The notes below the pieces were generated by a model that saw nothing but the letters and a program-made list of their open reading frames with translations, was not told where the DNA came from and did no database searches. Below, in pieces: positions 22,258 to 31,673 of a stretch of 64,000 nt of DNA. The first letter of the stretch is position 1, and every line of letters begins with the position of its first letter. The position numbers and the translations under genes were made by a program. This stretch comes from Prolixibacteraceae bacterium (lineage in GTDB: Bacteria > Bacteroidota > Bacteroidia > Bacteroidales > Prolixibacteraceae), in NCBI GenBank assembly GCA_029975525.1, contig JARKOX010000149.1:1-64000 (forward strand), in the 5' to 3' direction.

Positions 22258-23583
22258 CTACTGCATACCGTTTTCAACCGACAGTAGCCCGGCAATTCTG
22301 CAGAGTTCGGTTTCAGCGGTTTTACAGCGGAATTTGCTGGTCAGCAGCCGGTTTTCAGCTTCCATCAGTTTCACCTGGGTTTCGCGCAGCTCCACATCGG
22401 TAAGACTGCCCAGCCGGTATTTTTCTTCGGCAACGGCAAAATTCTGGCGGGCCAGGTCCAGACTTTCGGTTTCAAACTTCACCAGCCGGAGGTTGGTAAC
22501 ATAATCGTTATAAGTTTGCTGCAAATTGGCCTGCAGCTGCAACTGCAACTGTTCGGCTTCGGTTTGCGCCGACTCTTCGCGGATGCGGGCCTGGGCGATC
22601 TGCTGCCGGGTGGTAAATCCGTCAAAAATATTGTAAGCCAGCGATACGCCAACAGTAAATCCATAGTTTCGGTTTGAAGTCATCAGTCCGACATCCGACT
22701 TCGATTTGCTGAAATTGTAGCCCGAATTAAGGCTGAGCCGCGGCAATTGCTGCGAACGCAGCTCTTTGACAGTCAGCGTGGCCACTCCCACAGCGTTGCG
22801 GGCCCGTTGCAGATCGGGGTTCTCTTGTTGGGCGCGAACCCAAAGTTCCTCCTGCCGGAGGTCGTATTTCAGCGGAATGTCGGTGTCCACTTCAAACGGC
22901 TCGGTGAGGTTGCGGCAAAGCAGCAAGTTGAGGTCCGACTTGAGGTTCTCGACCACGGCCAGCTGGCGGAGATAGTTGGCACTGTCGGCATTCATATCGA
23001 CGGTAGCCTGCAAAACAGCCAGTTCCGATCCGCTCCCCACATCGGCCCGCGCCTTCGCAAAAAGGCGCCGTTCGGCCGAATTCCGGAGCGCTTCCCTGTA
23101 AACATTGGCCAGTGCCTGCTGGGCTGCGATATTGTAATAAACCTCTACCACGGCGGCCACGGTTCCCTCAATCACCGACCGCAACTGCAGGGCGCTCAGT
23201 TTTTCCAGTTCATTCAGTTTGTCTTTCTGGATAAACATATTAAAGCCGTCAAAAAAAGTCCAGTTCAGCTGTAAACCGGCACTCTGGTTGTTGGTTTTGG
23301 CATCTTTCCCTTCGCGGGTACGTCCGTCGTAATAAATCTGTTTTGAATTATTGATGGCCAGCGAACGGGAGCCGGTTAGCCCCAAAACAGGCAACATGCC
23401 TGCATTTCCGAGGGAATTGCCGGTTTCGGCAATCTTCAAATTGTTTTCGGCCAGCGAAATGCTGAAATTATTTTCAAGCGCCAGCACCACGGCATCGGCC
23501 AGGCGAAGCGTGTCGGCAGCTTTTCCGGCCGCTGGCACCAAAAGGGTTGAAATGAAAAATATGATCAAACAAAACTGTTTCAT
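22258..23583 (-). CDS. TolC family outer membrane efflux protein
   Basis: Signal peptide; TolC-type coiled repeats (LADAVVLALENNFSISLAENNLKIAE...); 4-nt overlap with the RND gene. Confidence 0.93.
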   Translation of the reverse strand: MKQFCLIIFFISTLLVPAAGKAADTLRLADAVVLALENNFSISLAENNLKIAETGNSLGNAGMLPVLGLTGSRSLAINNSKQIYYDGRTREGKDAKTNNQSAGLQLNWTFFDGFNMFIQKDKLNELEKLSALQLRSVIEGTVAAVVEVYYNIAAQQALANVYREALRNSAERRLFAKARADVGSGSELAVLQATVDMNADSANYLRQLAVVENLKSDLNLLLCRNLTEPFEVDTDIPLKYDLRQEELWVRAQQENPDLQRARNAVGVATLTVKELRSQQLPRLSLNSGYNFSKSKSDVGLMTSNRNYGFTVGVSLAYNIFDGFTTRQQIAQARIREESAQTEAEQLQLQLQANLQQTYNDYVTNLRLVKFETESLDLARQNFAVAEEKYRLGSLTDVELRETQVKLMEAENRLLTSKFRCKTAETELCRIAGLLSVENGMQ

Positions 23584-26500
23584 GATTCACTGATTTCGTA
23601 ATTCTTCTTTTTACTGCTTGAAATATAGGTATAGAGGGCAGGAATCACGTAAAGGGTGAGCACCAGCGAAAAGAGCAGGCCGCCAATAATGACAATCCCC
23701 ATGGAAACACGGCTTTTGGCGCCGGCGCCCAGCGCCAGGGCAATCGGAACAGCGCCCAGTACCGTGGCCAGACTGGTCATCAGAATTGGACGGAACCTTT
23801 GGGTAGCCGCTTCGAGCACGGCACTCCGGATGGTTTTTCCGGCCGCCTTTTTCTGGTTGGCAAATTCCACGATCAGAATGCCGTTTTTGGTTACGATCCC
23901 GATCAGCATAATCATCCCAATCTGGCTGAAAATATTGATCGTCTGCCCGAAAATGATCAGTGAGAGCAATGCCCCGGCAATGGCCAGCGGCACGGTAAAC
24001 ATGATCACCAGCGGGTCACGGAAACTTTCGAACTGCGCCGAAAGGATCAGGTAGATCAGTATCAGCGCCAGCATAAATGCAAAAAGCAAGGTATTGGAGC
24101 TTTCGGCGTAGTCGCGCGACGGGCCGGAAAGGCTTGTGACAAAAGTATCGTCGAGCACCTCTTGGGCAATGCGGTCCATGGCTTCAATCCCCTGTCCAAG
24201 CGTGTAGCCCGGCGACGGGTTGGCCGAAAAGGTTGCCGAGATGTAACGATTAAACCGGTAGATCTGCGGCAGGCTGCTGTTGTACTGTACCTGGATCAGA
24301 TTATCGAGCTGCACCAGCTCGTTGCGGCGGTTGCGCACATACACCGTACTGAGGTCGACCGGGTCGTCGCGGAAAGGCCGGTCGGCCTGGCCAATCACCT
24401 GGTACTGTTTCCCGTTGTAGATGAAATACCCCATCCGCTGCCCGCTGAAAAAGAGCTGCAGCGTTTCGGCAATATCACGAATGGTAACTCCCATGGTACG
24501 GGCGCGGTCGCGATCGATGGTCAGCGTCATCTCCGGCTTGTTGAATTTCAGGTTGAGGTCGACTACCTGAAAGGCCGGATCTTCCTGTGCCCGTTTCAAA
24601 AACGCAGGCAGCACCTCCTTGAGTTTATCGATATTCTGGGCCTGGATTACATATTGAACAGGCATTCCGCCGCCTCTTCCCACCTGAATCGTTTGCTCCT
24701 GACTGACAATAACGCGGGCGAAAGTCATCGGGCGGAAACGGGCGGTCAACTCATCGGCAATCTCCTGCTGCGAACGTTCACGATCGCCGGGCGGGGTCAG
24801 CGTCATCCGGATAAAACCGGAGTTGGTTGCACCCGAACTTCCGAATCCCGGCGAGGTCAATCCGATGAAAGCCTCTTTTTCGGGCAGGGAGTCGACGATG
24901 GCGATCAGCTGCTTCATGTATTCATCCATCTTCTCATAAGAGACCCCTTCGGGAGCCGTAGCCGAAATCATCAAACGGCTTTTGTCCTGCATCGGGGCCA
25001 GTTCCCCCGGAATAGAGAACCACAATCCCCCAACCATCAGAATGGCTACCGCCATTACCGCGAAGGCCACCCACCGGTGTTTTAAAAAGTGGTCCAGCGA
25101 ACGGTTGTACCGGCCAATCAGGGCAACGAAGAACCGCTCGGTACGCTCGTAAAAGCGGCTGTGGTGTTCGTTGTGTTTCAGCCAGTGGGCGCTCATCATC
25201 GGGGTTAGGGTCAACGACACCACGGCAGAAATGATAACCGCCCCGGCCATCACAATGGCAAACTCGCGGAACAGCTGGCCGGTTAATCCCTGCAGAAAAA
25301 TAATCGGCAGAAATACCGCCGCCAGCGTGATGGTGGTGGAGACAATGGCAAAGAAAATCTCTTTGGAACCTTTGAATCCGGCCTCCAGCGGCGACATTCC
25401 CTCCTCGATTTTACGGTAGATATTTTCGAGAACCACAATCGCATCATCCACCACCAGGCCGGTAGCCAGCACAATACTGAGCAACGTCAGAATGTTAATG
25501 GTGTAGCCGGCCAGGTACATCACAAAGAAAGAGCCGATCAGCGAAATCGGGATGGCAAAAACCGGGATGAGGGTGGTACGCCATTCGCGCAGGAAAAAGA
25601 AGATAACCAATACCACCAGCGTAAAAGCGATCAGAATCGTCTCCTGTACCTCATCAATGGCATTTCGAATCGAGATGGTAGTATCCGACGACGTGCCGAT
25701 GCGTAAATCTTCGGGCATGTCTTTTTTGATCTGCTCAATGCGGCGCAGCACTTCGTCTACGATGGTAATGTGGTTGGCTCCCGGAAGCGGCGTAATCGCC
25801 AGGCCGATCATCGGGATGCCGCCGTTTCCGCGCATAATCGACTTTTCGTTTTCGGCCGTGAGCACCGCATTTCCGACATCCTTAAACTTCACCAGCATTC
25901 CGTCCGACTCGCGGATAATCATATCGTTAAACTCGGCCGCTGTCGTCATCCGGCCGTAAGTACGCACCGAAAGTTCCGTTCCGTACCCCTCAATCCGTCC
26001 GGTAGGAAGCTCAATATTTTCGCGGTTCAGCGCATCGCGCACGTCGAGCGGGGTAAGCCCGTAACCGGCCAGTTTCAGCGGGTCGATATACAATTTGATG
26101 GAGTAGCGTTTTTCCCCGTAAATCCGGATTTCACTGACTCCCGGAACGGTTTGCAGCTGCTCTTTGAAAAGATTGTTGCCAATTTCTGAAAGCTCCAGCA
26201 GGCTGCGTTTTTCGCTCTGCAGGGTCATCACATAAATGGGGTTCGAGTCGGCATCGGTTTTCACCACGATGGGCGGGTCGACATCGGGGGGAAGGTTGCG
26301 CCGGGCGCGCGACACCCGGTCGCGTACGTCATTGGCCGCCGCCTCCATTTCGGTACCCACATTAAATTCCACAGTAATGGAACTTGCCCCGTCACGCGAG
26401 ATCGAGGTGAGTGTCCGGATACCGGCAATCCCGTTGATACTCTCTTCCAAAGGCTCCGTTATCTGGCTTTCGATCACATCGGCATTGGCGCCCGGATAGC

Positions 26501-26648
26501 TGGTTGAAACATTGATGGTAGGCGGTTCGATGCTGGGGTATTCACGAACCCCCAAAAAAGTGTACCCGATGATCCCGAACAGTACGATCAGGATGGATAA
26601 CACCATCGACAATACCGGCCTTTTGATAAATATGGCAGAAAAATTCAT
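23580..26648 (-). CDS. Efflux RND transporter permease (HAE1/AcrB type)
   Basis: IFIKRPVLSMVLSILIVLFGIIGYTFLGVREYPSIEPPTINVSTSYPGANADVIE; GLVVDDAIVVLENI. Confidence 0.97.
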   Translation of the reverse strand: MNFSAIFIKRPVLSMVLSILIVLFGIIGYTFLGVREYPSIEPPTINVSTSYPGANADVIESQITEPLEESINGIAGIRTLTSISRDGASSITVEFNVGTEMEAAANDVRDRVSRARRNLPPDVDPPIVVKTDADSNPIYVMTLQSEKRSLLELSEIGNNLFKEQLQTVPGVSEIRIYGEKRYSIKLYIDPLKLAGYGLTPLDVRDALNRENIELPTGRIEGYGTELSVRTYGRMTTAAEFNDMIIRESDGMLVKFKDVGNAVLTAENEKSIMRGNGGIPMIGLAITPLPGANHITIVDEVLRRIEQIKKDMPEDLRIGTSSDTTISIRNAIDEVQETILIAFTLVVLVIFFFLREWRTTLIPVFAIPISLIGSFFVMYLAGYTINILTLLSIVLATGLVVDDAIVVLENIYRKIEEGMSPLEAGFKGSKEIFFAIVSTTITLAAVFLPIIFLQGLTGQLFREFAIVMAGAVIISAVVSLTLTPMMSAHWLKHNEHHSRFYERTERFFVALIGRYNRSLDHFLKHRWVAFAVMAVAILMVGGLWFSIPGELAPMQDKSRLMISATAPEGVSYEKMDEYMKQLIAIVDSLPEKEAFIGLTSPGFGSSGATNSGFIRMTLTPPGDRERSQQEIADELTARFRPMTFARVIVSQEQTIQVGRGGGMPVQYVIQAQNIDKLKEVLPAFLKRAQEDPAFQVVDLNLKFNKPEMTLTIDRDRARTMGVTIRDIAETLQLFFSGQRMGYFIYNGKQYQVIGQADRPFRDDPVDLSTVYVRNRRNELVQLDNLIQVQYNSSLPQIYRFNRYISATFSANPSPGYTLGQGIEAMDRIAQEVLDDTFVTSLSGPSRDYAESSNTLLFAFMLALILIYLILSAQFESFRDPLVIMFTVPLAIAGALLSLIIFGQTINIFSQIGMIMLIGIVTKNGILIVEFANQKKAAGKTIRSAVLEAATQRFRPILMTSLATVLGAVPIALALGAGAKSRVSMGIVIIGGLLFSLVLTLYVIPALYTYISSSKKKNYEISES

Positions 26649-26660
26649 ACGTGAGGCAAA

Positions 26661-27773
26661 TTAGTTTGGAGTTTGTGCTTGTGCTGCCCGGCCGGCTTCC
26701 TTAACCACCACCGGCGAACCATTGTTGATCTGGAGCAATCCCGAAACGATCAGGCTGTCGCCCGACTGAATTCCGCTTAAAATCTGTATTTCTGTCTCGG
26801 TGCGCAGGCCGGTCTGCACCTCCACCAGATTGGCCCGACCCGCTTTGCAGAGATAAACCGAACTCTTCGTCAGGTCAGAAATCAGCGCTTCCGAAGGGAT
26901 GGTCAAGGCATCGGGGAACGATTCGAGCACAATCGAAATGCGGGCAAAAGTTCCGGGGATCAGCTTTTGTCCGGTATTGGGACAGAGCGCCCGGACTTTC
27001 AGGCTGCGAGTTTCGGCCGTAATTCCTGCTTCGCTGGCAAAAATCCGTCCGGTGAAAACCGAATCTGAGTTTTCGATCTGAAAGGAAATCTCTTGTCCTT
27101 CGCGAATGAGGCTGCTGTATTTTTCGGGCACATCAAATTCAATTTTGACAGGGTTGAGCTGCTGCAAAGTGGCAACCACCGTGTTGCTGACCACAAAATT
27201 ACCGGGACTTACACTCCGCAACCCGATTTTACCGGAAAACGGGGCATACACTTCGGTTTTGGCAATCTGGGCCAGCAGCAACTGTTTGTCGGCCTGGGTG
27301 ATCTTCAGCTGATTGTAGGCGGCATCGTACTCCTCCTGGCTGATGGCTTTAATCTCGAGCAGCTTCCGTTTGCGATACTCCTCATCGGCCAGCAGTTTTT
27401 CCTGTGCCTGGTTGCGGCAGAGTTGCGCCTGCAAATCGGCATCGTTGATCTTCATCAACAGTTTGCCCTTCTCAACCAGCGAACCTTCCGTAAAATTGAT
27501 GCTGACCACCCGGCCGGAAACCTCCGGTTTTAACTCCACCTTTTCATTGGCCAGGATGGTTCCCGTAGCACTGATGCGGTTCTGTAAAAAACGGGGATGA
27601 ACCACCTGCGCTTCAACCGTGACAGGTCCTCCCCGGCGCCCGCCTCCCGCCTGAGCCGATTCCGGATTTTTTTTACTGCACCCGATCTGAAGAGAAAAAA
27701 GAGCTCCTGCAAGCAGAAATACGCTGGCGGAAGTCCGCACTACGTTACCGGTTAACAAATTGAAATTCGCCAT
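26661..27773 (-). CDS. Efflux RND transporter periplasmic adaptor subunit
   Basis: Lipoprotein-like SP (LQIGCSKK), GRVVSINFTEGSLVEKGKLLMKIND, YAPFSGKIGLRSVSPGNFV. Confidence 0.95.
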   Translation of the reverse strand: MANFNLLTGNVVRTSASVFLLAGALFSLQIGCSKKNPESAQAGGGRRGGPVTVEAQVVHPRFLQNRISATGTILANEKVELKPEVSGRVVSINFTEGSLVEKGKLLMKINDADLQAQLCRNQAQEKLLADEEYRKRKLLEIKAISQEEYDAAYNQLKITQADKQLLLAQIAKTEVYAPFSGKIGLRSVSPGNFVVSNTVVATLQQLNPVKIEFDVPEKYSSLIREGQEISFQIENSDSVFTGRIFASEAGITAETRSLKVRALCPNTGQKLIPGTFARISIVLESFPDALTIPSEALISDLTKSSVYLCKAGRANLVEVQTGLRTETEIQILSGIQSGDSLIVSGLLQINNGSPVVVKEAGRAAQAQTPN

Positions 27774-28251
27774 TTTAAATCATTAAGAAAGTGGTCAAAA
27801 ATAAGGCTTTGCCGCATGTAAAGCCTGAGACTAACAAATCTAACAAAATTTTAACCTGTTGCTGTTTGTGCCACTCCCTGCCCGATGCAGATCACGGTCA
27901 AAAACAACAAACCGGCTGATTTGATTGTCATCTGTCATTTTGGTTTAATCTGAAAAAAATTAAAAATTTCATAACCTTCACCACACGGATCCTGACCGTT
28001 TTTACCCACCCCAAAAAAACTTCGCCTGCTCGCCCGAAAAACCGTGATTGCCTTGCTACAAAAGGCTTTCAGGTTAAAAAATCATGAAAAAGATATTGTA
28101 CAACATATCCTGACGATAGCACCCTAATTATAAGAAAGTTGCAACTAAAGGCCCGCAGCGCAAAAAAACTTTAATTCCCTGTTTTTCTTGACATTCCACA
28201 AGCATCCCTCAAAGTGCCTGAGCCTCACCTTCCCGGCAAATAATCCGCAAC

Positions 28252-28341: not shown

Positions 28342-30498
28342 ATGAAAGTTTACAAAACGAACCAAATTCGGAACATTGCCTTAATTGGAAATGCCGGCAG
28401 TGGAAAAACCACCCTCGCAGAAGCCATGCTGCTGGAGGGTGGAGTAATTAATCGTCGGGGCGAAGTCACGGCCAAAAATACGGTTTCAGACTACCAGCCG
28501 ATCGAACAGGAATATGGCAACTCGGTATTCTCTTCTGTGTTATATGCCGAGTACAACGATTACAAAATCAACATTCTTGACACGCCTGGTATGGACGATC
28601 TGAGTGGCGGCGTGGTTTCGTCGCTCGAAGTGGCCGATACGGGGCTGTTGATGGTAAACTCTTCAAACGGGGTGGAAGCTGGCACCGAAGCTGCGGCCCG
28701 TCACGCCGAAACCAAACACAAACCGCTGATTTTTGTCTTCAACCAGTTGGACCACGAAAACGCCAACTTCGACCAGACCCTCGACAAATGCAAATCGATC
28801 TTCGGAAATAAAGTTACGATCGTCCAATATCCGGTTGATGCCGGTCCCGGTTTCAGCTCCATCATCGATGTGCTGAAAATGAAACTGTACAAATACGGCA
28901 AAGATGGCGGCCAGCCGGAAGTGCTCGAAATCCCCGCTTCGGAAAAAGAGCGGGCCGAAGAGCTGCACAACGAACTGATCGAAATGGCTGCCGAAAACGA
29001 AGAATCGCTGATGGAACTCTACTTCGAACAGGGGTCACTCAGCGAAGACGAGATGCGCAAAGGCATGAAAATGGGAATCCTGCAACGCGACCTTTTCCCC
29101 GTATTCTGCGTTTGTGCCAAGAAAAATATTGGGGTGAACCGTTTGCTGGAATTCATCGGAAACGTAGCCCCGGCGCCCAACGAATTGCCCATGCGCAAAA
29201 TCGAAAGCGGCAAAGAGGTGACCATGAGCGAAACCGAACAACCCAGCCTGTTTGTTTTCAAAACAGCCATTGAATCGCACGTGGGCGAAATCACCTATTT
29301 CAAGGTTATGTCGGGAAAAATCACCGAAAGCATCGACCTGACCAACGCCACCAACGGTGCAAAAGAACGGTTGTCGCAAATTTTTGTATCGGCCGGTAAA
29401 AGCCGCACCAAAGTACCCGAAATGGTGGCCGGCGACATTGGCTGCACCGTTAAGCTGAAAGAGACCAAATATAGCCAGACCCTTTCTACCAAAGAGTCCG
29501 GGACCAAATTTATCCCCCTGCAGTTTCCGGCTCCCCGTCACCGCGTGGCCGTGAAAGCAGTCAGCGAAACCGACGACGAAAAGGTAGGCGAAATCCTGAA
29601 CCGGATCAAATACGAAGACCCAACCTTTGTTATTGAATACTCCAAGGAGCTTCGCCAGCTGATCGTACACAGCCAGGGCGAATACCACATGAACATGCTG
29701 AAGTGGTTCTTCGACTCGGTGCATAAAATTGAGATCGAATTCAAAGAGCCGCGCATTCCCTACCGCGAAACCATTACCAAAGCGGCACAGGCCGATTACC
29801 GCCACAAAAAGCAGTCGGGCGGCGCCGGACAGTTTGGCGAGGTTCACATGATTATTGAACCGTTTGAAGAAGGCAGCACCCCGAAAAGTGTTTTCATTTT
29901 CGACGGAAAAGAACAGAAAATTTCGGTTCGCGACGTGCAGGAACACCAACTGTCGTGGGGCGGCAAACTGATCTTCTGCAACTGTATTGTGGGCGGCTCG
30001 ATCGACGCCCGTTTTATGCCGGCAATCCTGAAAGGGATCATGGAAAAAATGGAGCAGGGCCCGCTCACCGGCTCTTATGCCCGCGACATCATCGTGTATG
30101 TGTACGATGGTAAAATGCACCCGGTCGATTCCAATGAGATTTCGTTCAAACTGGCGGGCCGCAACGCTTTCAGCATGGCTTTCAAAAAAGCCAACCCGAA
30201 AATTCTGGAGCCGATCTACGACCTGGAAGTGTGGGTACCCAGCGACCGCATGGGCGACGTGATGAGCGACCTCCAGGGACGCCGCGCCCTCATCATGGGA
30301 ATGGGTTCCGAAAAAGGGTATGAAAAGATCTCGGCCCGCGTTCCGCTGAAAGAGATGAACAAATACGCCACCTCGCTGAGTTCGATCACCGGAGGCCGCG
30401 GACAGTTCAAAATCAGTTTCAATGCCTATGAAAAAGTACCTGCCGACGTTCAGGATGAGCTCCTCAAAGCTTACGAAGCCGAGCAGGAAGAAGAATAA
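28342..30498 (+). CDS. Elongation factor G paralog (EF-G2 type, 718 aa)
   Basis: EF-G architecture with divergent G motifs: GNAGSGKTT, DTPGMDD (His to Met), NQLD. C-terminal GGRGQFKISFNAYEKVPADVQDELLKAYEAE. Confidence 0.92.
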   Translation: MKVYKTNQIRNIALIGNAGSGKTTLAEAMLLEGGVINRRGEVTAKNTVSDYQPIEQEYGNSVFSSVLYAEYNDYKINILDTPGMDDLSGGVVSSLEVADTGLLMVNSSNGVEAGTEAAARHAETKHKPLIFVFNQLDHENANFDQTLDKCKSIFGNKVTIVQYPVDAGPGFSSIIDVLKMKLYKYGKDGGQPEVLEIPASEKERAEELHNELIEMAAENEESLMELYFEQGSLSEDEMRKGMKMGILQRDLFPVFCVCAKKNIGVNRLLEFIGNVAPAPNELPMRKIESGKEVTMSETEQPSLFVFKTAIESHVGEITYFKVMSGKITESIDLTNATNGAKERLSQIFVSAGKSRTKVPEMVAGDIGCTVKLKETKYSQTLSTKESGTKFIPLQFPAPRHRVAVKAVSETDDEKVGEILNRIKYEDPTFVIEYSKELRQLIVHSQGEYHMNMLKWFFDSVHKIEIEFKEPRIPYRETITKAAQADYRHKKQSGGAGQFGEVHMIIEPFEEGSTPKSVFIFDGKEQKISVRDVQEHQLSWGGKLIFCNCIVGGSIDARFMPAILKGIMEKMEQGPLTGSYARDIIVYVYDGKMHPVDSNEISFKLAGRNAFSMAFKKANPKILEPIYDLEVWVPSDRMGDVMSDLQGRRALIMGMGSEKGYEKISARVPLKEMNKYATSLSSITGGRGQFKISFNAYEKVPADVQDELLKAYEAEQEEE

Positions 30499-30544: not shown

Positions 30545-30576
30545 CCCTGGTCCGTGAGGCCCGGGGTTTTCTTTTT
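30545..30576 (+). terminator. Terminator downstream of the EF-G paralog
   Basis: CCCTGGTCC-GTGA-GGCCCGGGG imperfect stem followed by TTTTCTTTTTT. Confidence 0.8.
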
Positions 30577-31673
30577 TATTGCCCCGCCAAAATAGTGATC
30601 AGCTCCTCATTGCGACTCCCGTCGCCATTCACCAGCCCGAAGTTGTTACTTTTGTAATTCCAGTTGGCAAAAGCAATCCCATTTTCACGGAAAAGCACCA
30701 GCATGTCGCGGTACCAGCTGAGCCGTTCAGCGGCAGGCGCATCGGCAACAATTCCGAATTCGCCGCAATAGAGCGGTAACCCGAGCGACCTGGCTTTTCG
30801 TAAGGGTTCCTGAAACATCTCCAGCAACACGGTTTGGTCAAATTGCCTGCCCACCCAGTTTTGAACGGCAGGCCGGATGCTGTCGGGAAGCTGGCTGAAC
30901 TCTTCAGCCGTCAGGATGGTCCCGGGATAATGCACCGGTCCGTTGTAATTTTTGAGGCTGGTCCAGCCGGCCTGGTAATGGCTCAACAAAAACGGCTCGT
31001 AAAAATGAAAACTGAGGATCAGGTTGGAGTCATTTTCCGGAACTTTCAGTTCATCGAAAGTGGCGTACGACTGCCAGCGGTTTGATCCCAGCACGATGGT
31101 GCGGCCGGGCTCCAGTTCGCGGATAACAGCGATAGCCCGGGCAGCCAGCTGGTTCCACTGCTCCGGATCGTCGGCAACGGCCTCATTCATCAGCTCGTAA
31201 GCCACGGCATGGTTGGGGTAACTTTTCAGCGCCGCCGACAAGTCGCGCCAGAGGTTGTAAAATTTCTCCTGCTCGGCCGGATCGGTCCAAAGCGGTTTTT
31301 CGGCAGCATTAAAATAGTGTGAACGCAAAATGTGGAGGTCGACAATCACGCGCAAGTTGGCCCGCAGGCACCAATCGATGCAGGAGGTCAGCAGCCGGAA
31401 CGCCTCCGGGTGACGGGCGCCCGACTCACCCCACATTTGCTCCTCGTCGATGGGCAGGCGGATATGGTCAAATCCCATCTGCGCAATAGCCTGCACATCG
31501 GCCTCCGTAAAAAAAGCTTCGCGTTCAACCCCGCGCCGGCTGCTTTGCGAAAGCCAATGGGCCACATTGGTTCCCGATTTTACCTCAAACTTCCCGGAAG
31601 TTCCGGAACTCTCCCGGAAATTGCAACTGCCCAGAAAAATGAGCGTTGAAATTGCGAAAACAAAAATTCTCAT
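30576..31673 (-). CDS. Glycoside hydrolase family 5-like cellulase-fold lipoprotein
   Basis: Lipobox LGSC; GVNVAHWLSQ-like start, GFDHIRLPIDEEQMW, AYELMNEAVADD (acid/base Glu), LPLYCGEFGIVA (nucleophile Glu). Confidence 0.9.
   Translation of the reverse strand: MRIFVFAISTLIFLGSCNFRESSGTSGKFEVKSGTNVAHWLSQSSRRGVEREAFFTEADVQAIAQMGFDHIRLPIDEEQMWGESGARHPEAFRLLTSCIDWCLRANLRVIVDLHILRSHYFNAAEKPLWTDPAEQEKFYNLWRDLSAALKSYPNHAVAYELMNEAVADDPEQWNQLAARAIAVIRELEPGRTIVLGSNRWQSYATFDELKVPENDSNLILSFHFYEPFLLSHYQAGWTSLKNYNGPVHYPGTILTAEEFSQLPDSIRPAVQNWVGRQFDQTVLLEMFQEPLRKARSLGLPLYCGEFGIVADAPAAERLSWYRDMLVLFRENGIAFANWNYKSNNFGLVNGDGSRNEELITILAGQ

Follow-up and report, generated by a model that had tools for sequence, protein, structure and literature searches.

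A Bacteroidota EF-G2 orthologue in Prolixibacteraceae, with a histidine-less switch II that is ordinary for its family

Introduction

The closest described relative of the protein reported here is EF-G2 of Bacteroides thetaiotaomicron (BT EF-G2; BT2167, the product of fusA2), a paralogue of EF-G. According to papers that cite Han et al., this factor carries out translocation without GTP hydrolysis and supports translation. Published work further describes fusA2 as induced by Cur (BT4338) on carbon limitation, and as required for gut colonisation. Bacteroidota EF-G2 is an already known starvation-type translation factor.

A wider group, EFG II (Margus et al. 2011), includes EF-G-2 of Thermus (1wdt). 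In this subfamily the G2 consensus is xxxSx, Ser being the normal residue, with YGYSV as the Bacteroidetes variant (PMC3150367). For Thermus EF-G-2, both GTP binding and GTP hydrolysis have been reported, as well as activity in making poly(Phe) (PMC3150367). In EF-G of E. coli, substitutions of the switch II histidine, His91, gave GTP hydrolysis ranging from defective to wild-type (H91Q), and phosphate release was slow in all H91 mutants (PMC4532990).

Results and Discussion

The gene analysed here lies in a stretch of 64,000 nucleotides of Prolixibacteraceae DNA, referred to below as the window; the coordinates of its features are collected in Table 1. Its product is an EF-G2 orthologue and belongs to the ancient EFG II subfamily. 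It matches the NCBIfam model NF058620 (EFG2_Bacteroid) with 1271 bits, where the cut-off is 1000, over profile positions 1-717 of 717, whereas its score of 493 bits for the canonical EF-G model TIGR00484 falls under the cut-off of 659. The alignment to BT2167 (718 aa, the chain of PDB 7uvp and 8dmf) is ungapped over 718/718 residues with 59.6% identity, the best-conserved part being the stretches of domain IV that flank an insertion (80-83%). The AlphaFold model has a mean pLDDT of 87, and its best structural match is 8dmf, ribosome-bound BT EF-G2 (TM 0.96, rmsd 2.2). In two trees the protein groups with BT2167 and separately from FusA, with 100% support for both separations; the root of the phylum tree fell near locus L148, a long branch, and this rooting is not trusted. 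All five EF-G domains were matched by Pfam. The preliminary description of this DNA, which had read the protein as EF-G-like from end to end and as a counterpart of the BT EF-G2 paralogue, is borne out on both points, and whereas it had named clustering with GTPase-active EF-G as counting against its own reading, the protein clusters with canonical FusA in neither tree.

Table 1. Positions in the window of the EF-G2 gene, its motifs and the candidate upstream site
Feature	Position	Strand	Evidence
EF-G2 gene (fusA2 orthologue), 718 aa	28342..30498	+	NF058620, BT2167 identity, predicted fold
G1/P-loop GNAGSGKT (residues 16-23)	28387..28410	+	alignment
Switch I EQEYGNSVFSS (residues 55-65)	28504..28536	+	alignment
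G3/switch II DTPGM (residues 80-84)	28579..28593	+	translation, alignment
G4 NQLD (residues 134-137)	28741..28752	+	translation, alignment
Domain IV insertion (residues 513-541), ~28 aa beyond canonical EF-G	29878..29964	+	alignment, tree set, model
Cur/BT4338-type candidate palindrome GATATTGTACAACATA	28092..28107		consensus match, 2 mismatches

A quite different identity, that of a ribosomal protection protein conferring tetracycline resistance, is suggested by the PDB, where the 7uvp chain is named 'Tetracycline resistance protein TetQ'. Yet the 7uvp sequence is identical to that of 8dmf, titled BT EF-G2, and the window protein scores only 97-235 bits for Tet(Q) and other tet models, against cut-offs of 775-1425 (235 against 775 for NF012153, tetracycline ribosomal protection). 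With such scores, far under the cut-offs, this identity was rejected for the window protein, and we hold the tetracycline reading to be most improbable. The 'TetQ' label on 7uvp is attached to a chain that is itself EF-G2.

The reading frame is intact. Comparison with five copies from the same genus revealed strong purifying selection (pN ~0.10-0.12, pS ~0.64-0.76), and codon 84 is ATG in 5/5 of these copies. The unusual residue of switch II, Met84 (ATG, 28591-28593), which takes the place of the conserved histidine within LDTPGMDD, therefore cannot be put down to a sequencing error or to gene decay. Translation and alignment verified this substitution as first described, and NQLD in place of NKxD was likewise seen. 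The P-loop retains GKT, with the Asp of canonical AHIDAGKT missing. In switch I, YGNSV replaces RGITI, and Ser61 occupies the position of the Mg-coordinating Thr. Because this pattern satisfies xxxSx, and EFG II proteins normally have Ser at that position, we regard G2 as altered rather than lost; the earlier statement that canonical RGITI is absent was correct as to the residues, but not as a sign of loss.

The absence of the switch II histidine is a trait of the whole family. Among 151 EF-G2 proteins drawn from across the phylum, none has His at residue 84 (0/151), the only His in the alignment being that of FusA from the window's own genome. The position is held by Met in 56, Tyr in 41, Leu in 22, Ser in 12, Thr in 8, Phe in 5, Ala in 4, Ile in 2 and Pro in 1, and in the tree Met has a single origin, within the Prolixibacteraceae group. 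Outside Bacteroidota we compared four EF-G2-type proteins from Fusobacteriota and Clostridia, plus Thermus EF-G-2: those of Ilyobacter, Fusobacterium and Monoglobus have DTPGY, that of Vescimonas DAPGN, and the Thermus protein, likewise lacking His, DAPGY. Since the residue is missing family-wide and Thermus EF-G-2 is reported to hydrolyse GTP, a missing His alone does not mean that hydrolysis is missing, and it was rejected as proof of an absent GTPase. A switch II without histidine has long been a feature of the family and is not evidence of an inactive GTPase, so that it does not support the degenerate GTPase centre of the preliminary description; the unusual GTPase motif is ordinary for this family. 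Nor is the missing His by itself diagnostic of EF-G2, for which the domain IV insertion is the better marker.

In the 511-543 interval that spans this insertion, 33 aligned residues are found in the Bacteroidales set, to which BT2167 and the window protein belong, compared with 24 in other Bacteroidota EF-G2s and 5 in canonical FusA. The length state changes only twice on the EF-G2 tree, and the insertion was absent from the EFG II proteins compared from Fusobacteriota and Clostridia. AlphaFold models it as three short beta strands in domain IV. We take the insertion to be the likely site of the 26-residue region that is specific to BT EF-G2. That region, as the 2023 work of Han et al. in EMBO J reportedly found, is required both for making protein and for release from the ribosome, and the missing GTPase activity is said to be due to it. 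The insertion, Bacteroidota-wide in EF-G2 and longer in Bacteroidales, is a candidate determinant of hydrolysis-free translocation.

The window protein shares with BT EF-G2 its length of 718 aa, the His-less switch II, the Ser in G2, NQLD, an insertion of equal length and the presence of a canonical fusA elsewhere in the genome. It differs in residue 84 (Ser in BT), in an insertion only 41% identical, and in its host, a member of Prolixibacteraceae that is probably environmental. With EFG II at large it has in common the relaxed G2 with Ser, a Tyr or other residue for the switch II His, and the constant presence of another EF-G; unlike it, the members examined from Fusobacteriota and Clostridia have no domain IV insertion, and the Thermus one is reported to hydrolyse GTP. 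With FusA of its own genome it shares the five-domain EF-G fold of a ribosomal translocase at 31.6% identity, whereas FusA has DTPGH, RGITI and NKMD, no insertion, and a place in the str operon.

With these comparisons in mind, we consider it rather probable that the window encodes a factor of the BT EF-G2 kind, which the genome retains in addition to one canonical fusA. According to this model, EF-G2 would most likely bind GTP and the ribosome and translocate tRNA and mRNA slowly, the ribosome stimulating hardly any GTP hydrolysis or none. Its exit from the ribosome would depend on the domain IV insertion that is specific to EF-G2, and it would probably be produced under carbon shortage. An energy-sparing function is proposed here because of the orthology to BT EF-G2 and the shared insertion, and not because of the motif. 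Judged in this way, hydrolysis-free translocation by the window protein is likely, and we infer that it may be induced on starvation; a role in gut colonisation is probably irrelevant in what is presumably an environmental host. Points against the model are that His is also absent from the Thermus factor, which is reported to hydrolyse GTP, that the insertion is only 41% identical to that of BT, that residue 84 is Met instead of Ser, and that the Cur-type candidate site upstream is weak and lacks conservation within the genus.

The first of these points leads to the possibility that this EFG II protein has retained GTP hydrolysis on the ribosome, as reported for Thermus EF-G-2, and serves as a spare or specialised translocase without sparing energy. 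The Thermus protein, with a switch II that likewise lacks His, is reported to make poly(Phe) (PMC3150367), and the window protein keeps GKT of the P-loop, Ser at G2, DxPG and NxxD. However, no GTPase-active member is as close to it as BT EF-G2 is, and it has the Bacteroidales-specific insertion that the Fusobacteriota and Clostridia proteins lack, which makes this alternative rather unlikely. It is still less probable that the factor binds ribosomes with no translocation, holding or protecting idle ones, as was proposed for some EFG II proteins such as EF-G2 of M. smegmatis: the part best conserved with BT EF-G2 is domain IV, which serves translocation, and the papers citing Han et al. have that orthologue supporting translation.

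The model of a BT-like EF-G2 beside a canonical EF-G agrees with the gene content of the genome (4.06 Mb in 304 contigs, 94.65% complete), which holds exactly two EF-G-type proteins, as judged by two EFG_III matches. The second is the canonical FusA, encoded on a separate contig (G000:C2:30638-32755); a second, canonical fusA elsewhere in the genome was what the preliminary description had proposed to look for. Together with 60 relatives, 55 of 61 genomes passed the EF-G2 cut-off, and three further genomes (G404, G428 and G440) contain pieces of the gene. In the remaining three (G399, which is 85% complete, G435 and G449) only FusA-like scores were found, and EF-G2 may have been lost there. 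In G404 (G404:C185:15298-17453) the frame seems to be broken into two pieces that overlap, the second of them with reported stops; a frameshift or an assembly error may be the cause. Across the phylum, 146 of 396 genomes gave a strong match. EF-G2 is near-universal in Prolixibacteraceae, and the notion of an isolated distant lineage that happens to carry it does not stand; a factor studied in gut Bacteroides is now extended to this family.

As to its control, the candidate Cur-type palindrome sits 235 bp upstream of the EF-G2 start codon and is the sole match with <=3 mismatches in the 64 kb, where 1.28 are expected by chance. In 85 upstream regions from Bacteroidales, sites with <=1 mismatch number 7 against 0.75 expected, but the species are related to one another. 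The genome-wide count of such sites was not above control, and the weak site upstream of EF-G2 did not recur consistently within the genus. Because of the control counts, the palindrome is only suggestive of Cur-type control; a Cur orthologue may be among the CRP-type regulators. A scan for a Bacteroidota-type -33/-7 promoter gave a single match, on the opposite strand and at chance level.

In the window's genome EF-G2 is separated from the rpsL-rpsG-fusA operon, and its neighbours are an RND-type efflux operon (22258-27773, - strand) and a GH5 cellulase (30576-31673, - strand). In relatives EF-G2 is found head-to-head with rpsL-rpsG-fusA-rpsJ, and str genes occur at 36 of the 64 loci whose upstream sequence extends for 5.9 kb or more. 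The rpsL start lies 355-772 bp from EF-G2, on the opposite strand, in 20 loci. At loci L055-L057, L059-L062, L065, L066, L068-L071, L074-L077, L083, L085, L086, L182 and L184, EF-G2 is divergently adjacent to rpsL-rpsG-fusA or a few genes away, so that many Bacteroidales show this arrangement. One may speculate, with considerable doubt, that the divergent EF-G2/fusA pair with its shared promoter region was an ancestral reciprocal switch between spending and sparing GTP, broken in the window's genome and in Bacteroides. If so, both would have exchanged a divergent-pair switch for remote control.

Copies from the same genus as the window have a C39-peptidase ABC exporter between EF-G2 and the str operon, and most of them have an HlyD-type gene there as well. 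Both genes have kept their place beside the str operon (L185:14043-17227, on contig C2) in the genome from which the window comes, but EF-G2 is gone, and a SusC/SusD-like locus, judged by eye, sits where EF-G2 would be.
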